Assembly: GCA_021776095.1 (NCBI GenBank)
Contig: JAJFGO010000003.1
Location: 1 to 64,000, forward strand
Reading direction: 5' to 3'
DNA: 64,000 nt
DNA from: Kiloniellaceae bacterium
GTDB lineage: Bacteria > Pseudomonadota > Alphaproteobacteria > Kiloniellales > J153
How positions within the stretch are numbered: the stretch's first letter is position 1; each line of letters opens with the position of its first letter. A model generated the notes under the pieces. That model had not been told where the DNA came from. It was given only the letters and a program-made list of their open reading frames with translations, and searched no databases. Position numbers and translations under genes: made by a program. Below, piece after piece: positions 25,449-27,119 of the stretch.

Positions 25449-25832
25449 ATGTCCGTAACGGTTCACAGGATCACCCGTTACACAGTGCAGGTTCTGACCA
25501 AGAGAATGGGCGAGGAAGGGCATTCCCTCATCACGGTGCGACTGTACGACGACGACAACGTGAGCCGCGCGGTCGCGGTATTCGAGAAATACGAAGCTGG
25601 CGCCGAGTCGCCCAAGCCGACCGGTGACTACAAAGCGCAGAGCGCGACCGCCTATATGGATATCGCCCACTACAAGGGCTACATGGATATCCTGCGGGAG
25701 GAAAAGACGGTCTACCTGAAACTCGGCTGGAGCCAGCAGGGTAAGGTCAGAAGCCTGTCGCACCTTTCGATCGACACCAAGAAGGAAGTGATCGGCGACT
25801 ATTTCAAGGCGTCGTCCAAAGCCCGCGCATAA
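25449..25832 (+). CDS. Hypothetical protein, 127 residues
   Basis: A small soluble protein with a very strong ribosome site (GGGGGAGG, 25436-25443 region) ahead of the ATG. It has no signal peptide, membrane segment or recognisable motif. The middle is tyrosine-rich (YKAQSATAYMDIAHYKGYMDILREEKT is the region about 62-88) and the C-terminus is lysine-rich. Codon use resembles its neighbours, so it is very probably a real gene. It follows the aminotransferase by 105 bases and precedes the palindromic element. I do not recognise the family and assign no function. Confidence 0.8.
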   Translation: MSVTVHRITRYTVQVLTKRMGEEGHSLITVRLYDDDNVSRAVAVFEKYEAGAESPKPTGDYKAQSATAYMDIAHYKGYMDILREEKTVYLKLGWSQQGKVRSLSHLSIDTKKEVIGDYFKASSKARA

Positions 25833-25929
25833 GGCGCGGTATGGCCTCTCGCGGGGCCTGGCCCGTTGTTCTCCTGGAACTTAGCCGAACCTAACGCGCC
25901 GCCACTTCGCCGCTCTCCGAACGAATAAT

Positions 25930-26197
25930 CTAGAGCATGTTCCGATCATATCGCATCATTTGACCGGTTTTTCGGGTCTGCTGGCTAGGCGCGGCCCACG
26001 CCGCGGTCTGGCTGACCGCAAGTGGGCCGCAACGACGTCCAGCGGGCGCGAAAAGCCGGCCTCCGGTGGGCCAAATCAGCCCATCGGCGTCGTTACGAAA
26101 CTTGCCCGATGCCCCACATCGCGCGGCGTTCCGTGCCTAGCCGAGTGACCTGATTTGGCGCCATCAAATGGTGCGATATGATCGGAATATGCTCTAG
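25930..26197. repeat. 268-bp long-palindrome, MITE-like element
   Basis: The left end (25930-25962) and right end (26165-26197) are inverted copies matching at 31 of 33 positions, both beginning CTAGAGCAT. Complementarity continues inward in patches, for example GGCTAGGC near 25982 against its complement near 26140 and an AACGACG core, so the whole element could fold as one long hairpin. No transposase or coherent reading frame lies inside. It occupies the 380-bp space between the convergent ends of the small unknown gene and potC. No convincing target-site duplication is visible. Confidence 0.8.
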
Positions 26198-26213
26198 GTT
26201 CTCCAGAAAGCCC

Positions 26214-27119
26214 TTAGTTCGTCGCCGCAATCGGCTTGGCGCCCAGCGTCTTGTCGATCTTCTCGTCGGCCCGCATGGCCTCCTCGCGGGCAGCTTCTTC
26301 CCTGGCCATCTCACGCCGGCGCATGATCTCGTGGGTCACGGCGCCGATCAGGGTGATCATGACGATAATGACCGCCAGGGCGCTGAGGTCCGGTTGGGTG
26401 CCCATGCGCACCTTGCCGGCTAGCACGGTGGTCAGGGTGCTTTCTGCCTGGATCGTGAAGACCGTCGTGTTGTAGTTCTCGAACGAGGTCAGGAAGGCCA
26501 GTATCGCGGCCGAGAAGATTGCTGGGCGCAGGAATGGAATCAGGATTTTCCAGAATACCTGGACGTGGGTCGCGCCGAGATCCAGGGCCGCTTCCTCCTG
26601 GGTTCGGTCGAAGCGTTGCAGGCGGGCCATGAAGACCAGCATGCAATAGGCCGAAATGAAGGTCGATTGCCCGACCACCGATAGGAACATGCCGTTGTAG
26701 AAAATCGATTCGTACTCCGCCTCGGCCAGCACGCCGAGGCGATCCCAGAATACCAGGGTTGAAATCCCCAGGATGACGCCCGGGGTCAGGACCGGGGAGA
26801 CGACGATGACATAGTAGTAGGGGCGCAGGCGCTCGTAGATTTGTCCCATCATGACCGCGGCGGCCAGGCTGATCGGCACCGAAAGGCAGACCACGCCCAG
26901 CCCGATGATCAGGCTGTTGGTGATACCCTCGATCATCTGATCGTCTTGGGCGAGCTGCCCGAACCACTTCATTGTGAAGCCCTCCCAAGGGACCACCTGG
27001 GGGAAGGGGCTTTCGTTGAAGGCGGCGGCGCCCATCATGATCAGCGGGCCGAAAAGGTAACCGAAAAACAACAGGATGTAGAATCCCACCATGAAGCGCA
27101 TGACGTTGGAGGAGGTCAT
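26214..27119 (-). CDS. Polyamine ABC transporter permease (PotC/PotI type)
   Basis: A 301-residue inner-membrane permease with six hydrophobic segments. The EAA loop is QEEAALDLGATHVQVFWKILIPFLRPAI, typical of the binding-protein-dependent transport family. The C-terminal tail is charged (MAREEAAREEAMRADEKIDKT). The ATG at 27119 overlaps the potB stop as ATGA; longer upstream frame is a shadow of potB. It is the last gene of the leftward potDABC operon. Specificity for putrescine or spermidine is inferred from gene order and the binding protein. Confidence 0.92.
   Translation of the reverse strand: MTSSNVMRFMVGFYILLFFGYLFGPLIMMGAAAFNESPFPQVVPWEGFTMKWFGQLAQDDQMIEGITNSLIIGLGVVCLSVPISLAAAVMMGQIYERLRPYYYVIVVSPVLTPGVILGISTLVFWDRLGVLAEAEYESIFYNGMFLSVVGQSTFISAYCMLVFMARLQRFDRTQEEAALDLGATHVQVFWKILIPFLRPAIFSAAILAFLTSFENYNTTVFTIQAESTLTTVLAGKVRMGTQPDLSALAVIIVMITLIGAVTHEIMRRREMAREEAAREEAMRADEKIDKTLGAKPIAATN

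Follow-up and report, generated by a model that had tools for sequence, protein, structure and literature searches.

A palindromic element in a Kiloniellaceae genome as a putative IS630-mobilized MITE with a conserved two-hairpin core and exchangeable ends

What is the 268-nt palindrome that lies at positions 25930 to 26197 of the window (the whole 64,000-nt stretch analyzed here, from the genome of a Kiloniellaceae bacterium), and is its folded interior more than the remnant of a transposon? The element has CTAG at both borders and, counted from TA to TA without the flanking C and G, spans 25931 to 26196 (266 nt). Its left terminal inverted repeat (25930 to 25962, plus strand, the 5' arm of an outer stem) resembles IS630 ends and matches the right repeat (26165 to 26197, minus strand, the 3' arm) at 31 of 33 positions, which confirms the 33-base repeats noticed in an earlier, sequence-only reading; the full inverted-repeat arms (25927 to 25963 and 26164 to 26200) are 37 nt long and 92% complementary. 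The TA dinucleotides at 25931 to 25932 and 26195 to 26196 are presumed to be the two copies of a duplicated target. That reading was also correct in finding no coding capacity (the single open reading frame of ≥60 amino acids wholly inside the element has 62) and in placing the element at converging 3' ends: a 127-amino-acid ORF (25449 to 25832, plus strand), with no Pfam match at E 0.001, stops 97 nt ahead of it, and an ABC transporter permease gene (PF00528; 26214 to 27119, minus strand) converges from the other side. One promoter-like match was found on the plus strand at 26155 to 26182, within the right end of the element (0.3 expected). The best explanation overall, to which we assign a probability of roughly three in four, is a non-autonomous MITE of a large family, probably moved by IS630, whose folded core is conserved, perhaps as RNA.

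That the element is a MITE is almost certain. Eight copies in the same draft genome (122 contigs) align over query positions 1 to 267 or 1 to 268 at 90 to 100% identity (one is 247 nt long), which rules out a unique palindrome; a ninth aligns over 184 nt, and further matches are shorter. Among the relatives searched, 26 of 58 genomes, this one included, contain a match. The window locus is empty in one congener (G001), where the flanking matches are separated by 122 nt, versus 417 nt in the window. Two copies of another congener (G002) are also missing elsewhere: that at L301:1723-1989 is absent at the syntenic position in the window's own genome (G000), G001, and G003, and that at L301:12963-13229 is absent in G000 and G001, with a larger stretch missing in G003. 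At the latter site, the upstream gene of G001 ends with TAG where the G002 element starts with TAG (the flanks are gapped); intergenic DNA is otherwise too diverged between congeners for an exact empty target to be recovered. The sequence-only reading had proposed a MITE-like element, with related copies and empty sites in sister strains as the checks, and the multicopy family found in place of a single copy, the empty congener sites, the TA inside CTAG borders, and the IS630-like ends all agree with it. Derivatives with a single hairpin also exist, retaining the right hairpin only (L010 and L012) or the left only (L011), and three further loci (L019, L021, and L027) hold little beyond the two ends.

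The ends point to IS630. IS630 elements prefer CTAG as a target, TA is present at both borders in most family copies, and CTAGAGC flanks both sides, 1.05 to 1.09 kb apart, in 9 of 32 loci recovered by DDE_3 searches (three of the 32 being the same region of the window's own genome). Ends similar, not identical, to those of the element occur in autonomous insertion sequences: the IS end at L156 aligns with a family arm at a score of 36 (best of 60 shuffles, 28), the end at L363, TAGAGCATTTTCCGATCAT, matches either window arm at 18 of 19 positions, and the DDE_3 locus L154 carries the TATACCAA kind of end. Other IS630 ends are weaker, and some (e.g., L148 and L149) mostly do not beat their own shuffles. 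Mobilization in trans by a transposase with matching terminal repeats, as suggested earlier, is plausible, but an intact partner was not found in the draft genome, which has DDE_3 fragments only, or in three congeners, which have none. The two IS630-type (DDE_3) transposase fragments at G000:C80:52683-54989 (L137) are the sole ones found in that genome, and no family-type ends were seen beside them. Under the preferred explanation, an IS630-family transposase would recognize the ends in trans and insert the element at TA, preferably within CTAG, and IS5 may replace IS630 as the trans mobilizer elsewhere.

The core (∼205 nt) consists of two hairpins and a short linker; in the window these are the left hairpin (25964 to 26059), the linker (26060 to 26065; CCTCCG in this copy and CCTTCGG-like in many relatives), and the right hairpin (26066 to 26163). 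This interior is conserved in relatives while the arms switch between TAGAGC...GCTCTA (type I) and TWATACCAAGG...CCTTGGTATWA (type II), and both types are present in each of at least three genomes (G001, G004, and G055). A third kind of arm (type III), CTAGTGGC, is found at L245 and L250 and was not linked to any IS, TAGTGG alone being common to L155; further arms, e.g., TAGCCCGCATTTCTCA and TAGGAGCCTGTCTGAG, were not linked to any IS either, and one of them used as a query gave plasmid matches at chance level. Between end kinds, identity is 0.25 to 0.45 in the outer part and 0.42 to 0.62 in the core, and the arms differ across copies yet remain complementary within each copy. Of 74 rows, 71 were measured (one place in G053:C3 being counted twice), and 53 of these span 265 to 268 nt from TA to TA.

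The core extends well beyond close relatives. A covariance model built from the core without its arms (R1; 204 positions, 40 sequences) has matches in 35 of the 289 genomes searched within the class and in 29 of 249 within the phylum, the window's own genome included; 21 of the 29 lie outside the class, a status assigned by kinship, and the per-genome copy numbers obtained from R1 are lower bounds. R1 gives only approximate E values and may also pick up long GC-rich palindromes; the matches are trusted because of their shared motifs and arms, palindromic arms being present in 34 of the 38 matches examined, including all eight of L392 to L399, five of which come from outside the class. A scan with a core pattern gave at least 117 stretches, and the 80 matches listed by title are from Alphaproteobacteria or just "Proteobacteria," among them Thalassospira mesophila, Neorhizobium galegae, Xaviernesmea rhizosphaerae, Nitratireductor, Roseibium, and Pelagibius. 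A blastn search with L392 recovered plasmid-borne copies of the core, none overlapping an annotated gene, from Pseudomonas aeruginosa, Azotobacter chroococcum (two records), and Halomonas (the last record being almost unannotated). The arms of these plasmid copies start with TAGGGTCTGTTGACGTT or TAGGGCCTGTTGACGTT, each of which also occurs as an end of an IS5-family element (842 bp) in Paracoccus liaowanqingii (the two ends of that element match at 17 of 18 positions); a second Paracoccus IS5 record has just one such end. The conserved core occurs inside terminal repeats of different kinds, among them, in Gammaproteobacteria, repeats that resemble IS5 ends, and common descent is likely. No match to the L392 core was found in the Escherichia coli genomes searched, or in plasmids with the window copy, L398, L347, or L348 as the query, and Rfam 15 gave nothing at or above a curated threshold, only a weak match to Erse (17.4 bits; threshold, 138). 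Two contigs of a viral collection, L410 (IMGVR_UViG_2891637928_000001) and L409, carry the core pattern, and the one of 21,540 bases may equal the same-sized Nitratireductor contig of L218. A plasmid of Catenovulum adriaticum contains, at L407:1501-1815, a 315-nt stretch with TAGGGTCTGTTGA-kind ends that match at 16 of 18 positions and with no annotated gene.

The predicted RNA fold of the element has a free energy of −172.5 kcal/mol, compared with an average of −102.4 kcal/mol for 200 dinucleotide shuffles (z, −12.95; 0 of 200 as good). The sequence-only reading had expected one very long hairpin; the outer stem does pair in this way, but inside it the best fold, backed by comparative data, is two side-by-side hairpins. 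When the left half of the window copy was forced onto the right half, the energy was −160.8 kcal/mol; a single long hairpin was rejected as the functional fold, the two-hairpin form having the greater stability in 58 of 60 elements. A left half also paired no better within its element than outside it: the element's own right half was better than that of another element in 32 of 60 cases and better than that of distant elements in 34 of 60.

Several lines of evidence indicate that the fold is conserved. First, RNAalifold on 41 diverse elements gave 96 pairs, with two-sided change in 73. Second, when the fold predicted from the window copy by itself was imposed on this 41-element alignment, 93.6% of cells paired versus 34.9 to 42.3% when the fold was slid by 1 to 3 columns, two-sided changes were seen in 75 of 107 pairs, and 0 of 500 shuffles reached any of five measures, although such results are favored by relatedness among the sequences and by deriving the fold from a single row. 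Third, in an unsupervised covariation ranking of 102 elements (those of 138 kept after removal of near duplicates; effective number, ∼42), 45 of the top 50 column pairs fall within the window-copy fold, 20 of them in the outer stem, 16 in the left hairpin, and 9 in the right hairpin. Two ends fitting one transposase could account for the outer stem but not for the inner hairpins. Pairing of the core is thus preserved by compensatory change, in both hairpins. An ordinary MITE, shrunk from one insertion sequence and with an interior that is mere leftover, would explain the IS630-like ends but not an interior that carries compensatory changes and is conserved between end kinds as well as outside the class; already disfavored, this origin is hardly credible.

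Four motifs punctuate the core. In the window copy they are m1 (AGGCGC; 25987 to 25992), m2 (CAACGACG; 26030 to 26037), m3 (CGTCGTTA; 26088 to 26095), which is mostly complementary to m2, and m4 (GTGCCT; 26133 to 26138), which complements m1 with one G-U, all given on the plus strand. The versions AGGCGC, CAACGC, GCGTTG, and GCGCCT recur at corresponding places. Of 132 elements, 96 had the complete set in a loose search, and on these Fisher tests (uncorrected) gave 7e-5 for m1:m4 and 0.013 for m2:m3. Covariation is clear for m2:m3 (3 and 0 of 1,000 shuffles as high) and weak or absent for m1:m4 (499 and 26 of 1,000). The order of the motifs is nearly identical on both strands, such that read-through from either side would yield much the same branched RNA, in which an outer duplex carries the two hairpins.

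The same symmetry would suit a core that works as DNA, in the form of a cruciform or of symmetric protein-binding sites (m1/m4 and m2/m3) serving transposition, replication, or nucleoid binding: the motifs form two inverted-complement pairs (m1:m4, 79 to 89% paired; m2:m3, 81 to 82%; slid controls, 20 to 54%), and there is no net strand preference. Binding sites, however, need not retain two long hairpins through compensatory change, and we consider a DNA role quite unlikely. A more serious challenge comes from mutation itself. Quasi-palindromes undergo arm-to-arm copying, in which the new strand folds back during replication and one arm is copied onto the other, and the paired changes might have arisen in this way with no function needed. 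This is the main rival to an RNA role and would account for outer arms that vary between copies yet are complementary within a copy, as well as for the lack of net strand preference. It is nevertheless somewhat unlikely: m1 to m4, which lie outside the perfect stems or at their edge, are much more strongly conserved than the arms, one G-U pair (columns 144:275) is retained in 41 of 41 sequences, and the size is held within the narrow range given above. The kept G-U and the conserved motifs speak against arm-to-arm copying as the whole story.

The plus strand is the more stable in 53 of 102 elements, i.e., there is no net strand preference, and R1 matches often score on both strands of one place. 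Neighboring genes could be called, crudely, for 114 of 144 copies; 30 lie between convergent, 17 between divergent, and 67 between tandem genes, and the last show no orientation bias (31 sense, 36 antisense). With neither strand preference nor orientation bias, an RNA role rests on symmetry. A strand-specific RNA was promising on 41 sequences (inner G-U:A-C, 219:115; plus strand more stable in 29 of 41), and the signal was gone on 102. In weighted cells of the 102 elements, the left hairpin has more G-U than A-C (124:69) and the right hairpin less (62:94); the 5' hairpin of each strand thus tolerates wobble more. The bidirectional termination signal suggested by the sequence-only reading, or a REP-like signal at 3' ends, would fit the strong fold and the position of the window copy between converging genes, but no stem with a T tract, as an intrinsic terminator would have, was found in 25800 to 26300, and most copies lie elsewhere than between converging genes. 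We regard such a signal as very unlikely and the termination claim as not upheld.

Type I copies are often inserted at TAG stop codons, which they restore. Of 143 type I ends, 132 had sufficient flanking sequence, and at 50 of these a coding-like ORF (≥80 codons) terminates in the TAG that the element supplies, compared with 8 and 4 in the other frames; background CTAG sites close such ORFs at 111 of 674 strand-sites (Fisher P value versus type I, 1.6e-7, uncorrected for kinship). Type II ends show no clear excess (7 of 21 versus 3 and 4 in the other frames), and the window copy is not a stop-codon-restoring case. The element begins with G after TA, and insertion into TAG therefore restores TAG, which makes gene 3' ends harmless landing sites; insertion at an amber stop would regenerate the codon and spare the end of the gene. 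Target preference, together with the loss of gene-breaking insertions, can explain the excess.

What the core does can be proposed with less confidence. We would guess that selection keeps the RNA as an element that processes, protects, or insulates the host transcripts carrying it; RNase III, for instance, would cut the long duplex and leave a stable 3' end. That the core acts as RNA, with processing or protection at mRNA 3' ends as the best guess, is a proposition that we find nearly as easy to accept as to doubt, and whether harmless or useful there, its retention as RNA is likewise a guess. A retained RNA would let the core persist and be repackaged with new transposon ends. A broader and slightly more tentative proposal is that the core is a Proteobacteria-wide passenger independent of any one transposase: a nearly 2-fold symmetric folded module of ∼205 nt, selected in its own right, repeatedly repackaged between unrelated IS ends (IS630, IS5, and perhaps others), and entering stop codons without breaking genes.

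To our knowledge, no core is common to this family and the RUP element of Streptococcus pneumoniae. RUP is likewise an intergenic MITE with a TA target for which IS630 mobilization is proposed, but it has 107 bp and 9-bp ends (PMC2229807). Correia/NEMIS elements of Neisseria share TA termini and have stem-loop transcripts of their own for which RNase III is proposed, and they differ in size (about 107 and 155 bp); ERIC/IRU elements of enterobacteria are intergenic with TA termini and alter mRNA stability, but they have 127 bp and an orientation-dependent effect, in contrast to the nearly symmetric window element (PMC2229807). MITEPsy1 and MITEPsy2 of Pseudomonas syringae are small and noncoding, with lengths of 100 and 228 nt and other ends; MITEPsy1 uses CTAG or YTAA and may be IS5 related (PMC3189936). 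QMITE2 of Coxiella burnetii, also a palindromic MITE, has partial relatives in Bradyrhizobium and Rhodopseudomonas and differs, as described, in its 7- to 9-bp direct repeats (PMC5896051). RIME and Sm repeats of Rhizobium/Sinorhizobium, comparable by description only, are also intergenic and alphaproteobacterial (PMC2245857). REP/REPIN sequences are palindromes of 20 to 40 nt (PMC3733652), a description that does not accommodate a 268-nt element with TA borders. A structured, IS630-moved MITE is a known kind (RUP; NEMIS and ERIC for RNA effects; PMC2229807); what is new is that the ends are exchanged while the folded core between them is conserved. No paper on the window family was found among the matches listed in our literature searches.

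Bacterial MITEs are usually seen as one shrunken IS in which the ends alone matter; here, the interior is shared and the ends are swapped. If our interpretation is true, the core is a common structured module that has gone unrecognized in Proteobacteria and is multicopy in many genomes, and its frequent placement at gene ends could influence a large number of mRNAs together. Whether a mobile element can endure by bearing a fold that is useful or harmless also becomes testable. Another dispersed repeat, of shorter length (∼70 to 150 nt), was observed at L301:89-242 (G002:C46:79089-79242), with dozens of matches in the four congeneric genomes (G000 to G003), often on both strands.
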